DNA from: Cellulophaga sp. F20128
GTDB lineage: Bacteria > Bacteroidota > Bacteroidia > Flavobacteriales > Flavobacteriaceae
Direction: 5' to 3'
Assembly: GCF_023015805.1 (NCBI RefSeq)
Contig: NZ_JALKBA010000011.1
Location: forward strand, 62,001-126,000
Length of the DNA: 64,000 bases
Part shown: positions 49,743 to 64,000 of the stretch, piece by piece
Position numbering within the stretch: the stretch's first letter is position 1
Layout of the letters: each line of letters starts with the position of its first letter
Notes under the pieces: generated by a model
What the model saw: the letters and a program-made list of their open reading frames with translations, nothing else
Told to the model about the DNA's origin: nothing
Database searches by the model: none
Made by a program: the position numbers and the translations under genes

Positions 49743-49753
49743 GTTGGTAACTG
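49743..49753. repeat. Cassette-boundary-like motif (relic)
   Basis: GTTGGTAACTG lies 7 bp before the following gene's stop codon and fits the GTT-N7-G pattern of stop-side boundaries in the 54-64 kb array, preceded by the similar TAATGCCTT. No matching partner was found at the gene's 5' side. Confidence 0.4.
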
Positions 49754-54476: not shown

Positions 54477-54506
54477 TACTGGCAACGGTTACCCTTGTTG
54501 GCAGCA
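54477..54506. repeat. Minimal array element (two boundary motifs 10 bp apart)
   Basis: A start-side motif (TACTGGCAAC, then GG) is separated by only 10 bp from a stop-side motif (GTTGGCAGCA, then G). Both fit the array consensus, but neither finds its partner on the other side of a gene, so the flanking cassettes appear broken here, the left limit of the clear array. Confidence 0.5.
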
Positions 54507-54546
54507 GTTATTTTTTGTCTGTGCCAAATTTAAGTTGCCTCTCGTA

Positions 54547-55437
54547 TTATTTATTGTCAAAATAGCTTTTTGATTCTTGGATTAACCCTTCCTCATTTAT
54601 AGTCCATTCTTCAAAGCCGTTAAAACGTACTTTGTTCCCATTTCCATCTGGTCCATTATTAGTTCCAGTAAATGTCCAATGAAATTTTGTTTTGTCTTTG
54701 TTGGTAGTAAGACTGTCCATTGAAACAACCATATCAGGAAAAGCCTCCATAAAACTTTTAACAATATTTGTTATTGCTTTTGTACCTTCTGCTGGTATAC
54801 CATCATTTATTTGTAGAACGCCATCTTCAGCGAAAAAGTAGGAGACAAAATTGGGTCTTTGGCTGCTCCATACTTGGGCATAACTCTTGGCAAAAGCCTC
54901 TAAATCAAATTTTTGCAGTTCTTCTGGTAAGCGTGTATTTGTAAATGAAATATTAATGAATTTCCATTCACCATCTTCCTTGATTAGGGTGAAATTATCG
55001 ATGTTATTTGTACGTGGAACACCATATTTATACAGCGTAGCATCGGCCCAAACAAAAGCAATTTGGTCTTGATTTATAAGGATTTTGTATTCATTTACGG
55101 GTTCGTAAAAGGGCTGCCGTTCTCTGTTTTTTTGTGTTTCAAAATATTCGCCAATTGTGATAACGGAATTTTTGGAGACGCCATCTCTAATTGTTGCACT
55201 TCCCAAGTTTGCCTTGTTTGAAACTATGGAATCCAAAGTCTGCCAATCAGAATTACCTACAGCAAACAATAGCTTTTCTACAAGGGCTTTTAATTCTTTT
55301 TCTTCTGGATTTCGTGTTTTTACTTCTTCAATACCCTTTTCGGTTAATTCAGTTTTATTTGGATTGGACTGGCAACTAAAAAATAAGCTAGAAACGGTTA
55401 CAAGAAATAATAGGGTAAAACTCAATGTTCTTTTCAT
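54547..55437 (-). CDS. Lipoprotein with two NTF2-like (SnoaL-type) domains
   Basis: This 296-aa protein has a signal peptide with lipobox (LFFSC, Cys about 22), then two cone-shaped NTF2-like domains (about 45-170 and 180-296; the second has YAQVWSSQRPNFVSYFFAEDGV and FNGFEEWTINEEGLI). Such domains often act as ketosteroid-isomerase-like enzymes or as binding modules; function unknown. Its 3' flank has a valid array boundary (54497), but no matching 5' boundary was found. Confidence 0.75.
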   Translation of the reverse strand: MKRTLSFTLLFLVTVSSLFFSCQSNPNKTELTEKGIEEVKTRNPEEKELKALVEKLLFAVGNSDWQTLDSIVSNKANLGSATIRDGVSKNSVITIGEYFETQKNRERQPFYEPVNEYKILINQDQIAFVWADATLYKYGVPRTNNIDNFTLIKEDGEWKFINISFTNTRLPEELQKFDLEAFAKSYAQVWSSQRPNFVSYFFAEDGVLQINDGIPAEGTKAITNIVKSFMEAFPDMVVSMDSLTTNKDKTKFHWTFTGTNNGPDGNGNKVRFNGFEEWTINEEGLIQESKSYFDNK

Positions 55438-55529
55438 AATTGGATTTTTTAATGTCTTGTCCTGAAATAGGGCTACAGCTTAAAATTGATTTACGCTGTT
55501 TATTGATAGACCATATTTGGTGAATGCTT

Positions 55530-55638
55530 AGTTGTGTGTTTAAGCAACTAACTTACTAAAAATGGAACGAACTGGAGGGAAATACGTAGGGTTTTCCAAG
55601 TAGGCGAGAACAAGCAATTACTTATAGCCATTGTGGTG
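55530..55638. repeat. Array element between the NTF2-like and SdpI/DUF3784 cassettes
   Basis: This non-coding element has a left part (GTGTTTAAGCAACTAA) shared with the element at 59543-59683 and a right part (GCGAGAACAAGCAATTA) shared with 52380. It ends in ATTGTGGTG (55630-55638), which is exactly complementary to CACCACAAT at 56357-56365 on the far side of the next two genes. Confidence 0.65.
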
Positions 55639-55647
55639 GTGTCGTTA

Positions 55648-56004
55648 TTATTCGTTCGTAAATTTATTCTTAATTGCTCTTTCAACTCGTATTAATAAAA
55701 ATACGACCATCAATATCATTAATACCAATCCTAAAAACATTCCTATTTTGCCTTCAGGTTTAAATATTAATCCAATAATTGAACTTAAAGTCAAAAGCGC
55801 GCCAAGTTTAACCATTTCAATGGAAGAGTATTTTTGAGAAAAATCCCATCTTTCTTGATTTTTCATCGAGCTTGAAGTTCTGTATCCATAAAGTCCATTT
55901 ATTTTTTTCGGTGGAAATTTTAGCATTAAAAATCCTGCGAGCATAAAAATTATTCCAGACGATGACGGAATTAGAAATAAGGGATTGTCAAAGGGCAAAT
56001 TCAT
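55648..56004 (-). CDS. SdpI-family membrane protein
   Basis: This 118-aa protein has three predicted membrane helices (about 12-28, 58-78 and 84-106) and the SdpI signature NGLYGYRTSSSMKNQERWDFSQKYS (about 36-60). In Bacillus, SdpI gives immunity to the SdpC toxin; in other bacteria homologues are of unknown role. It starts 2 bp after the DUF3784 gene, and the two share one pair of boundary repeats, so they form a two-gene cassette. Confidence 0.85.
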   Translation of the reverse strand: MNLPFDNPLFLIPSSSGIIFMLAGFLMLKFPPKKINGLYGYRTSSSMKNQERWDFSQKYSSIEMVKLGALLTLSSIIGLIFKPEGKIGMFLGLVLMILMVVFLLIRVERAIKNKFTNE

Positions 56005-56006
56005 TA

Positions 56007-56315
56007 TTAATTTTTGATTTTATATTTGTTCGAGTTTGATTTTATTAACAAGTATGGTATTCCGATAATCATTGAAGTCCAAAAAGCATAATTTTGAATA
56101 TTGGGATTTTCAGTCAATTCAGCTATTAGATACCCAGAAATGATAATTAAAGCCATACCGAACATTACATTTCGAAATAAATTTGCTATTCCTTCAATGT
56201 TGTATTTTTCTTTTTCTTCTTTCGGCATTGTATTGTAGCCAGCAATCAGCCAGTACATTTTTCCATATTTTATTAAAATTCCGAGTATGATAAATATTAT
56301 AGCTGCTACAATCAT
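56007..56315 (-). CDS. DUF3784-family membrane protein
   Basis: This 102-aa protein has helices at about 3-16, 48-66 and 74-92, and the DUF3784 core WLIAGYNTMPKEEKEKYN. DUF3784 proteins are often next to SdpI-like genes, as here. Function unknown. It is the upstream gene of the two-gene cassette. Confidence 0.82.
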   Translation of the reverse strand: MIVAAIIFIILGILIKYGKMYWLIAGYNTMPKEEKEKYNIEGIANLFRNVMFGMALIIISGYLIAELTENPNIQNYAFWTSMIIGIPYLLIKSNSNKYKIKN

Positions 56316-56356
56316 AGTAATCTATCTTTCTGAATTTTGACGTTTCGTTTTTAATG

Positions 56357-56640
56357 CACCACAATATACGGCTATCGGTCTGTGTACTGTTATTTCTTTT
56401 ATAGGGGGAGTACTAATCTAGTGGATTTTTTAGTATTATAAAAGTATTTGTAGTCACACCCTATTAACATTCAGGTGTATAACCAGATCTATGACCCATA
56501 AAGTAGGTTCAGGCTATTATTGAAAAAAAACAGGAAGAGCGCGATTTATAAAACACCGAAAGACTCAATTCACAAAGAAACTATTAATTAGCTGTAGAGA
56601 ACTGGACTAGGGCTTTTCATAGGAGCCATTGTTGTGCTTT
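56357..56640. repeat. Array element between the SdpI/DUF3784 and DUF6090 cassettes
   Basis: This 284-bp non-coding element, the longest in the array, begins with CACCACAAT (56357-56365, partner of 55630-55638) and ends with GTTGTGCTTT (56631-56640, partner of 57555-57564). Its right end matches the repeat at 48255-48306. Confidence 0.7.
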
Positions 56641-56642
56641 CG

Positions 56643-57401
56643 TTATTTTTTAATTTCGGTTTCCAAGAGGTTAATTATTTCCTTATTCAGTTCAATACAT
56701 TTTTCGTGTCTATCAAGTAATAATGATTTATATACAATCAGGTTTTCAACGATATTTTCGAATTCAATGTTTTTGAGTAGATCATTATTGTTTATTTCAA
56801 ATCCTGATTTAGGAAATCTTATTTTAGTAATTTCTTCGTCATTGGTTTTTTCATCAGAATTTAACCAACTGCCATTTTTAATAATGTATCTAATAAAGTC
56901 ATCAGAAAAATCAATTACAGATTTTTCTCTGTCTTTTAATGTTTCAAGTGTTGGTAACCAAGAAGAAAGTTTATTCCGTAAAATATCGTTTTTTATTATA
57001 CCGAGATTACCCGAGTTAATTAAATCCAATAAAAACCCATTTTGAGGGTAGTATTTTGGAACGTTTCCAACCGATTGCAGTAAACTATCGATATCGAATG
57101 AAGCTTGATATTTACTACCTGTATTATCAAGAATTATGAAACTATTTTTTTTAATTTCTTTTAGTTCTGCAATAGATTTATTTAATTCTGATTGATTGTA
57201 CTCAAAATCCAGTTTAAGATTAAGAAGGGCCTTTCGTTCAAAATCATTTTTATTTAAGGCATCATTATAATTATTCAATTGCAATGCAATCAAAATTCCG
57301 ATAACCACAAGAATTATTTCTCCAATAGCATAAATCAAATACTTACTGAATTTGTTTTCAGTCAGCATTTTTTGGCGGATTTTTCTAAAAAAATTGATCA
57401 T
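56643..57401 (-). CDS. DUF6090-family membrane protein, copy 2
   Basis: This 252-aa paralogue of the gene at 52.4 kb has the same basic N-terminus (FFRKIRQK), one membrane helix (SKYLIYAIGEIILVVIGILIALQLNN, about 20-42) and a long helical extracytoplasmic region. Its boundaries are GTTGTGCTTT after the stop and AAAGCACAAT at 57555-57564, 154 bp upstream of the start; the pair has a single mismatch (G at the first position). The 5' leader contains a hairpin AAACATCTACTAGATGTTT. Confidence 0.82.
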   Translation of the reverse strand: MINFFRKIRQKMLTENKFSKYLIYAIGEIILVVIGILIALQLNNYNDALNKNDFERKALLNLKLDFEYNQSELNKSIAELKEIKKNSFIILDNTGSKYQASFDIDSLLQSVGNVPKYYPQNGFLLDLINSGNLGIIKNDILRNKLSSWLPTLETLKDREKSVIDFSDDFIRYIIKNGSWLNSDEKTNDEEITKIRFPKSGFEINNNDLLKNIEFENIVENLIVYKSLLLDRHEKCIELNKEIINLLETEIKK

Positions 57402-57554
57402 AATTTCTCTGTTTTAAATTCTCTGCAAGCGGGTATATCAAGCAAATGTTCTCTTAGCCCTTCGGGGTGCTTCCATCAAACATCTACTAGATGTTTGGTA
57501 TCGCTTCACGATACTTCATTTCAGCAATATCATTGGTTAGCGGTTTGTCATAAT

Positions 57555-57694
57555 AAAGCACAATGGTTATATAAAGTGTCGTGCGACGTAAGGCGATCGA
57601 CAGGATTCCCGGCAGGGAATCCACGAGTAAATATACATTTACTTTGCAAATTAGGGCTAAGCCTAAGCATGCATTTTATATGTTGTTGTAAGTA
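57555..57694. repeat. Array element between cassettes DUF6090 and 57700 gene
   Basis: This element is bounded by AAAGCACAAT and GTTGTAAGTA (57685-57694, partner of 58329-58338). It contains a perfect hairpin GGATTCCC-GGCA-GGGAATCC and ends in the conserved TTATATGTT context before the boundary. Confidence 0.75.
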
Positions 57695-57699
57695 GTTTT

Positions 57700-58320
57700 T
57701 TATTGTAATACATTCAGTTCTAAATTCACTTCTTTAAAATAGTCAAGATAAATATATATACTATTTTTTTTATTATTTGAAGTATAACTCTGCACAATTC
57801 CAGTTCCTATGTTTTTTTTCTCTACAGCATCTTCGTAAGGATGTAAGCAACTAAATCTAAAGACTGGAAATAAGTTATGTGAATATTTTTTGATTTTTAA
57901 TTCTGAATTATTTATTATTTTTTGTCTCTTATTAATTGTAGACATTTTTACAATTTTGGATAAACTGTCTGATTTTTCAGTTTCAAATTTAAAATAGTTA
58001 TCCTTGAATGGGTTATTTATGTAATAAATATCTGTGTCTAAATACACAAATTGAAAAAATATTTCGTTTAACTTTCCTTTACTTTCTATTACTTTAAATC
58101 TGTGTTTTTTTAAATTTTTCAAATCAGTAAGGTATGCAATCGTTTCATTTTTATATTTTTTTAACTTTAAGAAATAGTTGTCATTTTCTTTGTTAGAATA
58201 AACGACAGTTTCTAAATAGCCATTAGAGGATTTATATCTTGTTAAAATATTAAATTTATAATTTTGAGTATAACAAAATATTGAATTGCAAAGAAATAAT
58301 AATATTATAGTTTTTTTCAT
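57700..58320 (-). CDS. Secreted hypothetical protein (cassette gene)
   Basis: This 206-aa protein has a signal peptide (about 1-18, IFCYTQ) and a Lys/Asn/Tyr-rich mature part with beta-strand-like alternation. It is strikingly A-rich in codon choice. No family is recognised. It is flanked by GTTGTAAGTA and TACTTACAAC, a perfect 10-bp pair. The start codon is 8 bp from the boundary repeat. Confidence 0.7.
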   Translation of the reverse strand: MKKTIILLFLCNSIFCYTQNYKFNILTRYKSSNGYLETVVYSNKENDNYFLKLKKYKNETIAYLTDLKNLKKHRFKVIESKGKLNEIFFQFVYLDTDIYYINNPFKDNYFKFETEKSDSLSKIVKMSTINKRQKIINNSELKIKKYSHNLFPVFRFSCLHPYEDAVEKKNIGTGIVQSYTSNNKKNSIYIYLDYFKEVNLELNVLQ

Positions 58321-58328
58321 ATTTAAAT

Positions 58329-58398
58329 TACTTACAACGGCAGTCTGTCTAATAACCTATCGAATCCGCCGTAATTGCGGTTATACATTGTTGGCAGC
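58329..58398. repeat. Shortest complete array element
   Basis: This 70-bp element runs from TACTTACAAC (58329-58338) to GTTGGCAGC (58390-58398, partner of 58930-58938), with a small internal hairpin (CCGC...GCGG) and TTATACATT before the right boundary. It overlaps the last codons of the next gene. Confidence 0.75.
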
Positions 58399-58911
58399 TG
58401 GCATTAGTATATTTCTTATTAACTTCTCGTTTAATTTATTTTCTCCACTTGAAATTCTAATAGCAAGATCTGAATCAAAATCATTAACGCTTTTATAATA
58501 TATTAATGGATTATCGATTTTCACGTAAATTTTTTCACAATAATTTTTTTTCAAAAAATCATTTCTTTCAAATTTATCGTAGCGATTGGTTTTTAAAATA
58601 TAATAGTAAGAATTGATTTCGTTTATTTCCCATTCATTTTCCTCGGCAGTCTTAAGTAATCTATTTTTAAATTCAGTTTTTTCTATTTTAAATTGAGATT
58701 TTAAATAATAAAGATTTCTATGAAGATAAATTAAGTTTAACATTCCAATAGTTATAACTGCAATACCAATTTTTCCCAAAGTGCCAATTTCTCTAATCTC
58801 AAAATTAAAATTTTCGATTTCTGAAGTCAGACAACAAACTCCAATAAATATAAAAATCAAAGTGATTTTGTAATATTTTAATTTTTCTTTGAAGTCTAAA
58901 TTTATTTTCAA
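58381..58911 (-). CDS. Membrane hypothetical protein (cassette gene)
   Basis: This 176-aa protein has two N-terminal membrane helices (about 12-28 and 44-64) and a cytoplasmic alpha/beta domain of about 100 residues (WEINEINSYYYILKTNRYDKFERNDFL). No family is recognised. The frame runs through its 3' boundary repeat, which encodes the last residues AANNV and the stop. Flanks GTTGGCAGC / GCTGCCAAC match over 9 bp. Confidence 0.7.
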   Translation of the reverse strand: MKINLDFKEKLKYYKITLIFIFIGVCCLTSEIENFNFEIREIGTLGKIGIAVITIGMLNLIYLHRNLYYLKSQFKIEKTEFKNRLLKTAEENEWEINEINSYYYILKTNRYDKFERNDFLKKNYCEKIYVKIDNPLIYYKSVNDFDSDLAIRISSGENKLNEKLIRNILMPAANNV

Positions 58912-58929
58912 TTTCTGTGTTTTTTGCTT

Positions 58930-59065
58930 GCTGCCAACGGTTCGGCTATGATTTCGGTCTGGGAAATCCGTTAGGATTTTTCAGAATCGGAATCGAGCCA
59001 GATTAAAAGTACTAAATTTTATTTTACGAAACAGTAAGACTGAATTATAGGCATTGTTAGCTTTA
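58930..59065. repeat. Array element, family 1 copy 1
   Basis: This element is bounded by GCTGCCAAC and GTTAGCTTTA (59056-59065, partner of 59543-59552). It contains a 77-bp block (58944-59020) that is identical to 61072-61148, including hairpin GGAAATCC-GTTA-GGATTTTTC. Confidence 0.8.
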
Positions 59066-59071
59066 GTTTTT

Positions 59072-59515
59072 TTATTTACAATCACTTTTTTCCGTTATAA
59101 TTCGTCTTTGATTTCGCCAATATTCAATGAATTCTTTCGAACCCGTTTTGCTATTATAAAGTACGTCGCCAATCAAGAAATGAAATTTTTGATTATCCCT
59201 TTTAATAAAAAGTGTGTCCGAGCATTTATTTTTTTCCAAAAAATCTCCTTTCAGTAAAAAATCGGCAATAAAAGGCTCGGAATAGTCATAATTTTTGCTA
59301 CCATCTATTTTCCAATACTCATTTTCATGTTCGAGAAGAATATAAGTGAATCCTTTGTACTGGTTTAGGTCGTTGATAACTCCAGTAATTGGAGTTTCAA
59401 AGATAATTGGTTTCGAGTTTTGAAAAATTCCAAAAGATAGGTGTCCAAACCATACTAATAATGAGGCAAATCCAATTAAAGTCATGGATATGATTAAAAT
59501 TTCATCTCGTTTCAT
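59072..59515 (-). CDS. Membrane-anchored hypothetical protein (cassette gene)
   Basis: This 147-aa protein has an N-terminal membrane helix (about 8-28) and an extracytoplasmic domain of about 110 residues with aromatic beta-strands (GFTYILLEHENEYWKIDGSKNYDYS). No family is recognised. Flanks GTTAGCTTTA / TAAAGCTAAC match over 10 bp. Confidence 0.7.
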   Translation of the reverse strand: MKRDEILIISMTLIGFASLLVWFGHLSFGIFQNSKPIIFETPITGVINDLNQYKGFTYILLEHENEYWKIDGSKNYDYSEPFIADFLLKGDFLEKNKCSDTLFIKRDNQKFHFLIGDVLYNSKTGSKEFIEYWRNQRRIITEKSDCK

Positions 59516-59542
59516 CCTCTTCCTTCAACGATTTTTCAAAAT

Positions 59543-59683
59543 TAAAGCTAACTGTTTTGTGTATGATTAGTGGCGTGTTTTAAGCAACTAATTTAGTAAA
59601 TAAAACACAAACCAAGAAAGTCCGCGAGGACTTTCGCAAGTGAGTAAAAAGCCAGCAATAAAGTTTATACGGTGTTGGCAATA
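59543..59683. repeat. Array element between cassettes 59072 and 59665
   Basis: This element is bounded by TAAAGCTAAC and GTTGGCAATA (59674-59683, partner of 60285-60294). It has a perfect hairpin GAAAGTCC-GCGA-GGACTTTC and a segment (GTGTTTTAAGCAACTAA) shared with 55530-55638. Confidence 0.75.
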
Positions 59684-60276
59684 GTTATTTCTTTTTTGAA
59701 TTTCTGAATTTCATTATAATTTTCAATGTTTAAAATATTCAATAATTCTAACCAGCTAATAATTCCATTTTTATGATAATTCGTTAACACATCTTTATAG
59801 AATTTAAGTTGTTCAGATTTGGTTTGTAAAAAATTGTATTCAATTTGTTTTCCGTTTTTCAAAGTCAAAATAAAACGATTATTCAAGCCATTTGAAAGGT
59901 GAGGAGTAAATTCTAAAAGATTGTTTGTAAAATCTCCTTTAACATCAAAAGTTGAGAAAAATTCCAATTTCTGTATTTCCTCAAGACTATATTCATTATT
60001 TTGAATTTCTACCCGATTTTCGTAAAAAGTTATTCTCCCACGATATTCTCCTATTTCTCTTTCATATCTAAAAAAAGTACTAATCATAAGTCCGATTATG
60101 TAAATTGTTCCAAGAATAAGAATTCCAGTTTCGAAACCTTTAAAATTAAATCCGAATGATTCTTTTAAATAATAAATTAGAAATATTAAAGCAGTCCAAG
60201 AAATCGCAACAATATTTTCTGGAGAAATATAAATTCCTTTCTTTTTTTCAAATATTCTTAATCTTCTCGGGTTCAT
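59665..60276 (-). CDS. Membrane protein with PH-like domain (cassette gene)
   Basis: This 203-aa protein has two membrane helices (about 20-36 and 46-66), followed by a beta-rich segment (RGRITFYENRVEIQNNEYSLEEIQKLEFF) resembling bacterial PH-like domains, and a helical C-terminus. Its frame reads through the boundary repeat, giving the C-terminus TIANTV. Flanks GTTGGCAATA / TATTGCCAAC match over 10 bp; the ATG is 8 bp from the 5' boundary. Confidence 0.7.
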   Translation of the reverse strand: MNPRRLRIFEKKKGIYISPENIVAISWTALIFLIYYLKESFGFNFKGFETGILILGTIYIIGLMISTFFRYEREIGEYRGRITFYENRVEIQNNEYSLEEIQKLEFFSTFDVKGDFTNNLLEFTPHLSNGLNNRFILTLKNGKQIEYNFLQTKSEQLKFYKDVLTNYHKNGIISWLELLNILNIENYNEIQKFKKEITIANTV

Positions 60277-60284
60277 TTTTTAAT

Positions 60285-60486
60285 TATTGCCAACGGCTGG
60301 GCTAAGCGTAGTGCGGAGGCAAGGAAACTTTTCGTTTCCGTCTGCCGACGTAGCTAAAGCTTATTGTTTTGCTTTTTCTTTTTTGTTCCAAAGCTAAATC
60401 CATAAGATTTAGCGACATCATAAATATACACAGACCTTTCGATTTAGCTCAAAAGCCCGCATTACGTTTAGGCATTGTTGTATGCC
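60285..60486. repeat. Array element, family 2 copy 1
   Basis: This element is bounded by TATTGCCAAC and GTTGTATGCC (60477-60486, partner of 61057-61066). It contains a 28-bp module (60318-60345, with GGAAAC-TTTTC-GTTTCC hairpin) identical to 61713-61740, and a second hairpin GCTAAATC-CATAA-GATTTAGC (60393-60413). Confidence 0.8.
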
Positions 60487-60495
60487 GTTTTTATT

Positions 60496-61047
60496 TCAGG
60501 AGACCCATAAGGATTCAACTTTTTCGATTTTCCATTTGTCCGTTTTCGTAAAGAGAAATACTAGTCCTTCTCCACATTCCCCGCCACAATAGTAAACGGT
60601 ATATATTAATGCTTTGTCTAAATCTTGATTGAAGATGATTGATGAAAATTGTATTGTCCCGATGTATCGACTGTCGTTATTTTTGTCGGAATCAGTTTCT
60701 AAACGGTAACGATTATATTCTTTGATTTTTTTAATATCCCACTCCTTGTAATTTTGAAAATCTTCAATAGCAAACTCTGACAATTTATTGAAATTAAGAT
60801 AATCGTTCAATATATTGATATCTAGCTCTCTAAGATTTGTATGATTTCTTACACGAAGAGAATTATAAGATTCTGATGTGTCAATCCAACCTAGTCCGTT
60901 TTCATCGTCGGTTTCGTGTCCGTAAGAGTGATTTAAGATTTCTGAAATAATTTGATATTCCTCTGATTCATTTAATACTGGTTTACACGAAAAAAGAAGT
61001 AAGGTTAAAAAAATAAGTCCCAGATAAAATGTGGTTCGTTTGTTCAT
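60496..61047 (-). CDS. Lipoprotein, hypothetical (cassette gene)
   Basis: This 183-aa lipoprotein has a signal peptide and lipobox (LLLFSC, Cys21). The C-terminus has YYCGGECGEGLVFLFTKTDKWKIEKVESLW, a pattern shared by a group of small exported Bacteroidota proteins of unknown role, with two Cys that could pair. Flanks GTTGTATGCC / GGCATACAAC match over 10 bp, and the start codon is 9 bp from the 5' repeat. Confidence 0.75.
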   Translation of the reverse strand: MNKRTTFYLGLIFLTLLLFSCKPVLNESEEYQIISEILNHSYGHETDDENGLGWIDTSESYNSLRVRNHTNLRELDINILNDYLNFNKLSEFAIEDFQNYKEWDIKKIKEYNRYRLETDSDKNNDSRYIGTIQFSSIIFNQDLDKALIYTVYYCGGECGEGLVFLFTKTDKWKIEKVESLWVS

Positions 61048-61056
61048 TTTTTAAAT

Positions 61057-61194
61057 GGCATACAACGTTTAGGCTATGATTTCGGTCTGGGAAATCCGTT
61101 AGGATTTTTCAGAATCGGAATCGAGCCAGATTAAAAGTACTAAATTTTCTTTATAGAAAAATGCAAGACTGAATTATAGGCATTGTTGGCATTA
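61057..61194. repeat. Array element, family 1 copy 2
   Basis: This element is bounded by GGCATACAAC and GTTGGCATTA (61185-61194, partner of 61679-61688). It contains the 77-bp block 61072-61148 identical to 58944-59020; the flanking boundary words differ completely between the copies, while the block and the final ATAGGCATT are the same. Confidence 0.82.
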
Positions 61195-61665
61195 GTTTTT
61201 AATTCTTTTTATCTCGTTCAGCTTTTCAGTTGTTTCTTTCAAGAATTCAAGTGTCCAGCCGTCTGTTTTATATTGCTTTATTATCGTGTATCCTTTTCGG
61301 TCAATTCTCATATGGTCACTGACAAGTGATGAAATCCCTATACCATTTCCATAATATTCAACTGTTAATTCATTTATTGGGATATCAGTAATTTTCCTTT
61401 CCATTTTAGAATTGTAGTATGTAAACTCTATAGAATTATCTTTCAATTCAGCTTTCGTAATAAAATGTTCCGTTGCTTTATAATTCATAAGAATAAAAGT
61501 CACCACAAAAAGGGTCGCCATTATCCATAAAAACGAGATTTGAAAAGAAAAGAATACCAAAAGTCCAATCCATATAAAAACCCAAGGAGCGACCAACGAT
61601 TTTAAAAACCTTTGTTTAAAGTCAATCACATCTTTTGTAAATATTGGTTTTGTGTCGTTTATCAA
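61192..61665 (-). CDS. Membrane hypothetical protein (cassette gene)
   Basis: This 157-aa protein has two adjacent membrane helices (about 24-44 and 46-62) and a cytoplasmic beta-rich domain resembling YcxB/PH-like modules (AELKDNSIEFTYYNSKMERKITDIPI). The stop codon TAA lies inside the 3' boundary repeat. Flanks GTTGGCATTA / TAATGCCAAC match over 10 bp. Confidence 0.7.
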   Translation of the reverse strand: MINDTKPIFTKDVIDFKQRFLKSLVAPWVFIWIGLLVFFSFQISFLWIMATLFVVTFILMNYKATEHFITKAELKDNSIEFTYYNSKMERKITDIPINELTVEYYGNGIGISSLVSDHMRIDRKGYTIIKQYKTDGWTLEFLKETTEKLNEIKRIKN

Positions 61666-61678
61666 CGTTTTTCTAAAT

Positions 61679-61884
61679 TAATGCCAACGGTGCGGCTATG
61701 GCAAGTAGGGCAGGCAAGGAAACTTTTCGTTTCCGTCTGCGCTCGCAGCCAAAGCTTTTTGTTTTGTTTTTATCTTTTTCATTTTAAAAGCCAAATCCAA
61801 AAGATTTGGCGGACTTAGTAAACAAGACCAAGCAATTAAATTTAACACTTTATGCCCTATTTGCTATAGGTTGTGTTGTGTAGC
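61679..61884. repeat. Array element, family 2 copy 2
   Basis: This element is bounded by TAATGCCAAC and GTTGTGTAGC (61875-61884, partner of 62314-62323). It carries the 28-bp module (61713-61740) identical to 60318-60345, and hairpin GCCAAATC-CAAAA-GATTTGGC (61790-61810), equivalent in place to the second hairpin of 60285-60486. Confidence 0.8.
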
Positions 61885-61890
61885 GTTTTT

Positions 61891-62301
61891 TTACAGTCGA
61901 ATAGTCGTGTCTTTTTTTAACTCACTCAATATTTCGATTTCCATACCAGTCTGGAAAACTAATTCCATAACGGTTCCAGATGATTTTTTAAATCTTTTTT
62001 CAAGTGCTGTTGAGTTCCGAACCATTAGTGCTGTATCACTAATTTTTTCAATCATTTCTTTTATCAATTCCAAAGCTCTTTCATCATCTATTTTATTCCA
62101 GTTCTCCAATTCAGGCATTGCTAAAGTCCGAACAAATTCATCAAGTCCTTCACTTCTCCAATAATTGCATAAATCATATTCAGTAATTTCTTTATCCGAT
62201 AACTTTTTAATTTGAAATAACGCCGTCGCAACGTCCAATTTACCGTTCTCCAAATCGAGTATGATTTTCTTTATTGGCTCAAAATTTTCGAGATACATCA
62301 T
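61891..62301 (-). CDS. Acidic helical hypothetical protein (cassette gene)
   Basis: This 136-aa cytoplasmic, mainly alpha-helical acidic protein has no signal peptide. Size, charge and solitary position are like immunity proteins of polymorphic toxin systems, but no family is recognised. Flanks GTTGTGTAGC / GCTACACAAC match over 10 bp; the start codon is 12 bp from the repeat. Confidence 0.65.
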   Translation of the reverse strand: MMYLENFEPIKKIILDLENGKLDVATALFQIKKLSDKEITEYDLCNYWRSEGLDEFVRTLAMPELENWNKIDDERALELIKEMIEKISDTALMVRNSTALEKRFKKSSGTVMELVFQTGMEIEILSELKKDTTIRL

Positions 62302-62313
62302 ATTTTTTTAAAT

Positions 62314-62516
62314 GCTACACAACGTCTCGTATATGAAAAGTAGCGCTGAAAATAAGCGATAATTTTCGGATTATTCACGAGCCGAATTTTTAAATTTTAC
62401 TAATTATTTTATTTTTGGGAATTTGTCAAATTTAAAATTTGGCGACTTTCCAAAAATGCACTAGCCTCCGTGTTAGCAACGACTTGCGCTATTTTTTATA
62501 TACATTGTTACCCAAC
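62314..62516. repeat. Array element, family 3 copy 1, with an internal boundary scar
   Basis: This element is bounded by GCTACACAAC and GTTACCCAAC (62507-62516, partner of 63138-63147). It has hairpins TTCGG...CCGAA and CAAATTT-AAA-ATTTG, with layout similar to 63687-63884. Inside, GTTAGCAAC (62472-62480) looks like two boundary motifs fused without a gene. Confidence 0.72.
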
Positions 62517-62520
62517 GTAT

Positions 62521-63135
62521 TTATTCGGTTAATGAGTTTCTAAAGTTATTATCTAATATTTCATAAACCCTTTTGTCCGTATAATTAATTGAAATACTAA
62601 ATAAATTTTCTCCAACAAAACTGTTGTAAATCAATTGCGTTAAAACTAGTTCATTTGTTTTTGCATTATATATTTTCGTTTCTATACTGTAAAAATCATA
62701 TTTTCCAATTTTTTCAGTATTCAAACTATTTTCAAATTGGATTCCATTAATTTTTGAGTAAGTGTTTGAAAGAAGTTCGTCAACAAATTTTTGGTGTTCC
62801 ATAAGAGACATTTTCTTTGTTCCTTCCAATGATTCAAAAGACGATGAGAAATAATTTCTTTCGTCAATTTCAAATCCGATTAGGTCTGACCTGTTCTTAC
62901 GTACTTCAATTCCGTCTGGTGTATTGCCTTTGACTTTTTCGTAACCAACATCTTCGAGGTCTTCTTTTTGTTTTAAAGTTCTAACTTTGAAATTTTCGGG
63001 AATTTTAATGTTCCAATCGATTAGATTGCATTTATATATTCCGTTTTCAATAATTCCATTTTCAGTGTGACTTTGAGAACAAGAATTAAAGGATAATAAA
63101 AGAAGTATACAAATAAGCAATATCGTTTTTTTCAT
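62521..63135 (-). CDS. Lipoprotein, hypothetical (cassette gene)
   Basis: This 204-aa lipoprotein has a signal peptide and lipobox (LLSFNSC, Cys19). The mature part has an alpha/beta pattern (GFEIDERNYFSSSFESLEGTKKM, LIYNSFVGENLFSISINYTD) like small exported Bacteroidota proteins of unknown role. Flanks GTTACCCAAC / GTTGGGTAAC match over 10 bp, and the ATG lies only 2 bp after the 5' boundary repeat. Confidence 0.72.
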   Translation of the reverse strand: MKKTILLICILLLLSFNSCSQSHTENGIIENGIYKCNLIDWNIKIPENFKVRTLKQKEDLEDVGYEKVKGNTPDGIEVRKNRSDLIGFEIDERNYFSSSFESLEGTKKMSLMEHQKFVDELLSNTYSKINGIQFENSLNTEKIGKYDFYSIETKIYNAKTNELVLTQLIYNSFVGENLFSISINYTDKRVYEILDNNFRNSLTE

Positions 63136-63137
63136 AT

Positions 63138-63275
63138 GTTGGGTAACGGTTTTGTAAATGGAAAGTTGCGTGTTTGCGTGCGAGGATTTTCCGAAGGAAA
63201 ATCAGACGTAGCAAACGTGCAACGACCTTTGTTTTAGCAAGAAACCAGCAATTTTTTATATACGTTGTTGGCAAC
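63138..63275. repeat. Array element between cassettes 62521 and 63256
   Basis: This element is bounded by GTTGGGTAAC and GTTGGCAAC (63267-63275, partner of 63687-63695). It has a perfect hairpin GATTTTCC-GAA-GGAAAATC and ends with TTATATACGTT, the conserved context of the right boundary. Confidence 0.75.
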
Positions 63276-63669
63276 TGGCTTTTATTTTTTCATTTATTCG
63301 GTCAAATTTATTTTCTCCGAGTTCATTTTTTATTAATTCCGAATTCCGTTCCACAATATTTTTAAAAGTCAGAAATTCAGTTTTATTTTCATTCCAAAAT
63401 TCATTCGATAAATTCGAAACTGCAACAAGTAAATCGCCTTCATAAAAATCACATTCGGTCAAAATATTCCGTTCGAGTTTTTCGAGTGCGATTCCGATTA
63501 GATATTCAATTCCGATTTTTTGAGAAATCAGAAGTCTTATCTGTTCGTTTGTCAATACCGCAATACTGATTTTCCGATAATGATAACATTTTTCAACCAA
63601 ATCAGTCGGAAATTCGGAAGGATTTTTCCAAATATCTTTTTCTAATTGTTCGATTGATTTTGTTTCCAT
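63256..63669 (-). CDS. CdiI_3-like contact-dependent inhibition immunity protein (cassette gene)
   Basis: This 137-aa cytoplasmic helical protein matches the CdiI_3-type immunity family in its key blocks: LVEKCYHYRKISIAVLTNEQ, IRLLISQKIGIEYLIGIALEKLE and FYEGDLLVAV, then EFW. Such proteins neutralise a cognate CdiA-type toxin, but no toxin gene is next to it, so it may be an orphan immunity gene. The boundary repeat encodes its C-terminus (CQQRI). Flanks GTTGGCAAC / GTTGCCAAC match over 9 bp. Confidence 0.75.
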   Translation of the reverse strand: METKSIEQLEKDIWKNPSEFPTDLVEKCYHYRKISIAVLTNEQIRLLISQKIGIEYLIGIALEKLERNILTECDFYEGDLLVAVSNLSNEFWNENKTEFLTFKNIVERNSELIKNELGENKFDRINEKIKASCQQRI

Positions 63670-63686
63670 AAGAGTGATTTCAGCTT

Positions 63687-63884
63687 GTTGCCAACGGTTA
63701 GTATATGAAACGTAGCGTGCAAATAGACGCTAACTTTTCGGATTATACACAAGCCGAATTTTTATGTTTTGTTTTTGCTTTTTTATTTTAAAAGCCAAAT
63801 TTAAAAATTTGGTGACTTTACAAATACACACAAACCTCTCGTAAAGCCTATAATAGCTATGTTTTATATACATTGTTAGCTATA
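63687..63884. repeat. Array element, family 3 copy 2
   Basis: This element is bounded by GTTGCCAAC and GTTAGCTATA (63875-63884; the partner lies beyond the window). Its layout resembles 62314-62516: TTCGG...CCGAA hairpin, then GCCAAATTT-AAA-AATTTGGT, then TTATATACATT before the boundary. Confidence 0.78.
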
Positions 63885-63889
63885 GTGTT

Positions 63890-64000
63890 TTATTCAGTCA
63901 GCTTTAATTCATATCGAACATAATGTATACTTTTTATTGACTTTCCACCTTTTAAAGCAGGTTCAAATTTTAATTCAGACATACTTGATTTTACTTGCTC
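63890..64000 (-). CDS. TonB C-terminal-like protein, partial (cassette gene cut by window end)
   Basis: The last 36 codons of a minus-strand gene are visible; the frame is open to the window edge. The sequence LKFEPALKGGKSIKSIHYVRYELKL resembles the end of TonB-like C-terminal domains (FxPAxKxGKxV pattern). The stop codon follows the boundary GTTAGCTATA by 5 bp, exactly as in the other cassettes. Too short for certainty. Confidence 0.6.
   Translation of the reverse strand, partial: EQVKSSMSELKFEPALKGGKSIKSIHYVRYELKLTE

Follow-up and report, generated by a model that had tools for sequence, protein, structure and literature searches.

A probable integron-like gene-capture array with a recurrent A/G mismatch in the cassette end words of Cellulophaga sp. 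F20128

The window considered here is a 64,000-nt stretch of contig NZ_JALKBA010000011.1 (C17 in the locus labels) of Cellulophaga sp. F20128, and it contains an array of gene cassettes. Between positions 57685 and 63695 there are nine complete cassettes, each a minus-strand gene flanked by inverted words, the stop-side word beginning with GTT and the start-side one ending with AAC. These end words (GTT plus seven bases) pair across the gene over 10 bp in seven cassettes and over 9 bp in two, as the initial annotation of this DNA had described. The mismatch it reported at position 11 is present in all nine, with G on the stop side (read GTT-first) and A on the start side. The annotation, however, let the repeat end at position 10, whereas positions 12–14 pair again in nine of nine cassettes (in window order TTT, GCA, TTT, TTA, TTT, TTT, TTT, TAT, and GCT), so the repeat consists of 10 bp, a mismatch, and about 3 bp. 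The array probably belongs (probability roughly 0.8) to an integron-like system for gene capture whose integrase is unusual.

Cassette 1 (57685–58338, words GTTGTAAGTA) contains a gene at 57700–58320, and the same layout on the same strand is found in cassettes 3 (59056–59552; gene 59072–59515; GTTAGCTTTA), 5 (60477–61066; gene 60496–61047; GTTGTATGCC), 6 (61185–61688; gene 61192–61665; GTTGGCATTA), 7 (61875–62323; gene 61891–62301; GTTGTGTAGC), and 8 (62507–63147; gene 62521–63135; GTTACCCAAC). In cassettes 2 (58390–58938; GTTGGCAGC), 4 (59674–60294; GTTGGCAATA), and 9 (63267–63695; GTTGGCAAC), the open reading frame (ORF; 58381–58911, 59665–60276, and 63256–63669, respectively) runs through the stop-side word and ends in the spacer (58381–58389, 59665–59673, and 63256–63266), so that the attC end supplies the stop codon. 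Cassettes 2 and 9 are also those with 9-bp words; their stop-side words, at 58390 and 63267, were correctly described as having T/A at position 10 and still G/A at position 11. A tenth minus-strand cassette begins at 63876 with the stop-side word GTTAGCTATA-G, runs to the window end at 64000, continues into locus L041, and ends within the last 1.7 kb of the contig. The cassette 9 product (63259–63669) resembles CdiI_3 (contact-dependent inhibition immunity), and homologous cassettes occur in five other genomes with 81–90% DNA identity. In one of them (L118) the match is 90% identical and both flanks are different (upstream, 85 nt were available for the comparison). Cassette 4 likewise has homologues outside this genome, for instance in L117 (82%). 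Apart from the CdiI_3-like protein, none of the window cassette products (eight proteins) matches Pfam or PADLOC.

The spacers are attC-like and on the same strand. In gene sense they follow cassette 2 (58339–58389, a short one of 51 nt), cassette 3 (58939–59055), cassette 4 (59553–59673), cassette 5 (60295–60476, with L arms CTAA[A/G]CGTA[A/G]TGCGG), cassette 6 (61067–61184, where a repeat starting at 61048 is 88% identical to 58920–59031), cassette 7 (61689–61874), cassette 8 (62324–62506, with L arms GTATAT[A/G]AAAA[A/G]TAGCGC), cassette 9 (63148–63266), and cassette 10 (63696–63875).

To the left of the clean array, the cassettes in 54477–57564 have decayed, and their cut triplets are mutated (ATT or GTG in place of GTT). 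A probable older cassette on the minus strand, read by eye, spans 56631–57564 (gene 56643–57401; stop word GTTGTGCTTT-CG, start word ATTGTGCTTT-A), and a probable two-gene one on the same strand, also read by eye, spans 55633–56365 (genes 55648–56004 and 56007–56315, degenerate words). At 54477–54506 the start-type word GTTGCCAGTA-A and the stop-type word GTTGGCAGCA-G stand on either side of a mini-spacer of 10 nt; comparable mini-spacers (AACGGTTACCGTT) are found ahead of cassettes in L098 and L099. The words that the initial annotation had read at 54477–54506 and, with G at position 11, at 49743 and 50283 are there as described; for the latter two, however, no partner word was found, so they are only candidate members of the system.

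A larger set of cassettes was called downstream of relatives of the integrase described below, solely from 9-mer word pairs and their linkage either to the recombinase or to an adjacent cassette, with position 10 onward left unused. The 67 non-redundant recombinase loci with downstream sequence yielded 306 cassettes, or 293 distinct ones after merging duplicates in both words, with up to 26 per locus. The two R boxes of a cassette pair with each other in this set; a 9-mer match is itself a condition of calling. An earlier call set, in which 119 of 928 raw word pairs were kept (both flanks being needed), still contained chance pairs; the final set includes only pairs linked to attI or to a neighbour.

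According to this set, the position-11 rule is strong but not absolute: G/A (stop/start) is found in 231 of the 293 cassettes and a match in only 10, while positions 10, 12, 13, 14, and 15 match in 207, 247, 253, 217, and 72, respectively. Among the 207 cassettes matched at position 10, 193 have G/A at position 11. In the standard class (n = 240) the count is 226, including 33 cassettes that were admitted on the grounds of T/A followed by G/A. Another 33 of the 293 have one extra stop-side base, usually T (27), and show G/A in 27 cases after realignment. The remaining 20 fall outside both classes; several look like chance word matches and others have T/A at position 11. The two variant classes, T/A at position 10 and the one-base insertion, do not fit the strict 10-bp length proposed initially. 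The view that the mismatch is not accidental fares better, as G/A recurs in many genomes and position 11 does not vary freely.

In the standard class the triple at positions 12–14 matches in 179 of 240 cassettes, compared with a mean of 45.6 and a maximum of 63 in 2000 partner permutations, whereas matches at positions 15–17 (62, 35, and 53) are close to the permuted means (47.8, 30.4, and 56.3). The excess over the triple and the drop from position 15 thus define an element of 10 bp, one fixed mismatch, and 3 bp. The GTTRRRY and RYYYAAC boxes of canonical attC sites are not kept: position 4 is R in 234 of 240, and position 5 is T in 114, G in 82, and C in 44. As for orientation, the longer ORF is forward in 232 of the 293 cassettes and reverse in 24. 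The other 37 lack, in both directions, an ATG-initiated ORF of 40 residues. A search of the window's own genome with the pattern CATTGTTR-N7-G gave 75 hits versus 68 in the control, i.e., no excess; a longer pattern occurs 22 times among the matches listed in 60 genomes of the family and few times in the control.

Spacers in the anchored arrays are mostly 110–129 or 170–189 nt long, and their ends form inverted arms. Among 206 of them, 118 align without gaps, 72 contain a single additional base (on the R''-L'' arm in 11 and on the L'-R' arm in 61), and in 16 no L pairing is clear. The extrahelical bases on the R''-L'' arm that characterise canonical attC are therefore not a regular feature here, with one extra base there in only 11 of 206. 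In a separate count over 118 spacers at the two usual offsets, columns 3–15 match in at least 91 spacers each, with the exception of columns 7 and 12, which are A/G in 108 and 115 of 118, respectively. An earlier, partly overlapping set of 76 spacers gave 130 A/G versus 2 G/A. All three fixed mismatches (R position 11, L7, and L12) are A·C in the gene-sense strand and T·G wobbles in the other strand. When 76 circular sites were reconstructed from a cassette's own stop word, spacer, and own start word, the bottom strand was predicted to be more stable in 73 (mean −4.0 kcal/mol, DNA parameters).

The recombinase is encoded on another contig of the same genome (C35), where a gene for a 380-aa tyrosine recombinase (L042:9694–10836) is followed by a dyad, GTTGTAAAACA, and two cassettes. 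As in an integron, the recombinase gene adjoins the attI at which arrays begin; it lies upstream of the cassettes and is codirectional with them. A search for related loci returned 49, mostly from Flavobacteriaceae or other Flavobacteriales, with Marivirga (L115) outside these and one match, in a Terrihalobacillus contig, that is just 25% identical. A GTTN7A word lies downstream of the recombinase in 64 of the 67 loci, in 44 as the paired end of the called first cassette and in 20 as found by that pattern. The dyad before it has a median score of 10.0, compared with a shuffled mean of 4.5, and ends 3–7 nt before GTT in 54 of 64. In four loci (L173, L174, L164, and L217) two tandem dyads stand between recombinase and first cassette, as if attI had been duplicated. 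Breakpoints were placed by comparing loci: in 15 pairs, identity is 80% or more across the 3' end of the recombinase gene and on to GTT (in 14 of them attI, too, reaches at least 80%), and over the next 150 nt all 15 fall to 45–54%, as in random pairs (mean 50%, 95th percentile 55%). The collapse of identity at GTT in 15 of 15 pairs locates array turnover at this triplet.

Twenty lower-scoring recombinases were also fetched, and six (L193, L195, L201, L202, L203, and L205; about 36–46% identical) precede a first cassette with the position-11 rule, which indicates that the system is older than the main clade. The idea that every match to the integrase profile is an integron integrase is not supported, since 12 of the 20 have no clear first cassette and two (L190 and L192) are odd matches; in five of the 20, less than 250 nt of sequence is left. 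Other candidates for the integrase in the window's genome were rejected. The recombinase of the C44 cassette array (298 aa, L043:1080–3200) stands directly before a 377-aa protein, which we take to be an IS91-type transposase, and Xer-type proteins on C114 and C38 branch elsewhere in the tree.

The window array and C35 share repeat ends, which suggests that they belong to one broken integron. The repeat is an ORF-poor cassette (GTTAGAGGCC-A at the start, GTTATTGGCC-G at the stop; about 490 bp in L105) found at L042:12335–12546, at the left end of L043, at the right end of L041, and in L105 from 2258. Lying at contig ends, it probably broke the assembly, and the order would be integrase, c1, c2, repeat, C44, repeat, and window array. 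The sequence after attI in L105, which also follows the last spacer in L042, was considered as an empty site. Because it starts with GTTAGAGGCC-A-TT and the other end of the repeat has the stop-type word GTTATTGGCC-G, it is this repeated cassette and proves nothing about empty sites.

According to profile scores, the integrases differ from integron integrases. Five of them obtain 196–209 bits against TIGR02249 (cut-off 265); the window's genome has no match over this cut-off, and no IntI-type match was reported on the window contig C17. Against NF040815 (XerA; named 'site-specific tyrosine recombinase/integron integrase' in NCBIfam, cut-off 220) four of the five pass with 233.6–241.1 bits, and L115 has 216.6. 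Between the GLRxxE and HxLRH motifs these integrases have 85–87 residues, versus 127 in nine IntI from the window's GTDB phylum. The integrase thus appears to be without about 42 residues spanning the IntI-specific insertion (I2). The phmmer alignment with IntI4 (2a3v) likewise comes in two pieces, split at 178/243, with residues 179–242 left out. In the tree, these integrases form one clade (100/98) apart from IntI (100/99), with IntI on a long branch and the deep order unsure. A predicted integrase model (pLDDT 81.8, pTM 0.50) has XerA 5hxy as top Foldseek match, with IntI4 close behind. Similar to XerA in profile score and in the top structural match, these proteins differ from it in an additional N-terminal region of about 110 residues and in the linked attI and arrays. 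That region (L042:9694–10020 and relatives) has no Pfam match in the three proteins scanned and is predicted to contain mixed strands and helices.

For comparison, 12 IntI regions of the same phylum were analysed as a canonical control; chains of four or more cassettes were obtained from four of them (26 cassettes in total) and none from the other eight. Cross-gene pairing is alike in these 26 cassettes, but position 11 is A/G in none and matched in 19, and the triple 12–14 matches in three. Pairing across the gene is thus integron behaviour, while the fixed mismatch is unseen in this sample. Passages of PMC2727003 describe the same R''/R' self-pairing of the two ends of a canonical cassette over 9–11 nt and give folding as its reason. 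Shared with canonical integrons are also the recombinase beside attI, arrays of mostly one-gene cassettes, GTT/AAC boundaries, L''/L' arms, and cassette proteins mostly without Pfam family (eight of nine in the window). On the other hand, the codirectional upstream integrase gene, the palindromic attI, the loss of GTTRRRY, the fixed A/G at R11, L7, and L12, and an integrase that scores under the IntI cut-off, branches apart from the IntI clade, and lacks the residues mentioned above set the present arrays apart.

As for the unit of mobility, first cassettes abut attI and every later one follows a spacer, as in integrons. Nine homologous cassette pairs were compared: in six of them (three forming one trio) 118–189 nt of the downstream spacer are shared and at most 45 nt upstream, and three pairs do not share the downstream sequence.

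Read from the sequence, units of GTT-word, gene, complementary word with AAC, and spacer follow a recombinase gene and a palindromic attI, both in the window's own genome and in its relatives. Recombination, and the role of the wobbles in strand choice, are what we infer. The pairing of the words across the gene, the L-arm mismatches, and the preference of the fold for one strand together argue for recognition of a folded single strand, the mismatch at position 11 being one mark of asymmetry out of three. By analogy with known integrons, an excised circular cassette would fold as a single-stranded attC hairpin, with its own two words as R stem and the spacer arms as L stem, and the recombinase would insert the folded cassette at CG^TT of attI. 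The most likely role of the three marks would be to keep the hairpin from being palindromic, which would lead to use of the bottom strand with its nearly unbroken helix. In that case the wobbles may take the place of the extrahelical bases, which in canonical IntI are read by the I2 helix. The nearest parallel is the integration of CTXphi by host XerCD, in which, according to passages of PMC4792948, an Xer-type recombinase without I2 acts on a folded single-stranded site whose stem has no extrahelical bases and mimics duplex DNA. Folding is something we infer for the present sites, and CTXphi, unlike these arrays, encodes no recombinase, whereas here a recombinase gene stands beside attI and would serve gene cassettes.

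Several results weigh against this interpretation. A site embedded in the array, where the neighbouring words differ, is predicted to be less stable in 73 of 76 cases (mean 6.4 kcal/mol), which leaves excision unexplained. Closing the A·C positions in silico removes 1.7 of the 4.0 kcal/mol bias and leaves 2.3, with the bottom strand still favoured in 65 of 76 sites and the top in 10; the marks thus explain less than half of the predicted strand asymmetry. Nor are extra bases absent, given the 72 of 206 spacers with one extra L-arm base and the 16 unclear ones. The ownership of spacers is mixed, too: when 10 homologues of two window cassettes were compared, at most 24 nt were shared on the downstream side in any of them, and one (L138) has 154 nt of the upstream spacer in common, of a type repeated in that array. 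Spacers may be exchanged or homogenised within genomes. Finally, the idea that the word is a private tag of each cassette was dropped, as identical words within arrays number 14 versus 11.7 expected.

Among other explanations, the words with their mismatch could form a double-stranded site read by sequence, with A and G at position 11 contacted directly and the words as two half-sites. The nearly fixed A/G and the resemblance of attI to a double-stranded dyad fit such a site, and recognition by a protein, as proposed in the initial annotation, is very likely. A plain duplex site is nevertheless unlikely to be the right form of it: the word differs from cassette to cassette but is matched at the two ends of each, a match that half-sites read by sequence would not require, pairing is restored at positions 12–14, the L arms have mismatches of the same chemistry, the folds favour one strand, and canonical arrays show the same cross-gene pairing, for which folding is the reason given in the passages of PMC2727003. 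These resemblances to the classical description (cassette anatomy, GTT/AAC, and self-pairing over 9–11 nt) could also mean that the system is an ordinary canonical integron, or a CALIN (attC cluster without integrase), in which only the host is new. Within the GTDB phylum, 84 of 296 genomes encode an IntI that exceeds the TIGR02249 cut-off, and the window contig shares with CALINs the absence of a reported IntI-type match. However, the integrase falls below the IntI cut-off and is without the insertion, the fixed A/G at position 11 is absent from the 26 canonical cassettes, and the 85 phylum genomes with TIGR02249 at E ≤ 1e−60 include one of the window's class and none of its family. Unlike a CALIN, moreover, the array has an integrase encoded in the same genome, on C35. 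This reading is quite improbable.

Inverted ends, together with the L118 unit (90% identical, differently flanked on either side), are also what would be expected if each gene were a small transposon-like element with the words as terminal inverted repeats. Since the ends differ from unit to unit, the arrays start at a recombinase-adjacent attI, and the downstream spacer is shared in six of nine homologous pairs, such elements are very improbable. The spacers are hairpins between genes and might, with the words, act in RNA as terminators or mRNA ends rather than in recombination; that no Rfam family reaches gathering score in the window is counted on the same side. Transcripts, however, would carry the gene-sense strand, which is the less stable one in 73 of 76 sites (DNA parameters), and the words pair across whole genes and are linked to attI, so a role in RNA is the least probable of these alternatives.

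Regarding the spread of the integron-like system favoured here, matches to the DNA of this array (E ≤ 1e−10), mostly through spacers, occur in 264 of 397 genomes of the family. The integrase profile finds 254 of the 397 at E ≤ 1e−60, which is a mixed set, and 66 at E ≤ 1e−120. In the class, 17 of 395 genomes match at the latter threshold, and these 17 are spread over seven families. According to a passage of the IntegronFinder 2.0 paper (PMC9024848), Bacteroidetes proper have one complete integron (Salinibacter). In the open full-text literature, mostly judged by abstracts and exclusive of preprints and subscription journals, flavobacterial integrons of this kind were not found, and their novelty is therefore provisional.

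Passages of PMC4792948 describe I2 as a special 20-residue domain of integron integrases that reads the extrahelical bases in the folded attC and is held to be necessary. The joint origin of the two is called there a chicken-and-egg problem, which intermediate forms could solve. It is possible, though tentative, that a separate integron lineage is widespread in Flavobacteriaceae, with an Xer-type integrase lacking I2 and with the strand picked by three T·G wobbles instead of extrahelical bases, which would be either a missing evolutionary intermediate or an independent invention of integrons. Integron anatomy without the insertion, and with wobble-type marks mostly replacing extrahelical bases, makes the question of the origin of I2 and these bases directly testable. 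If this is true, searches based on IntI and canonical attC would have overlooked a large reservoir of gene capture in a major group of marine bacteria.

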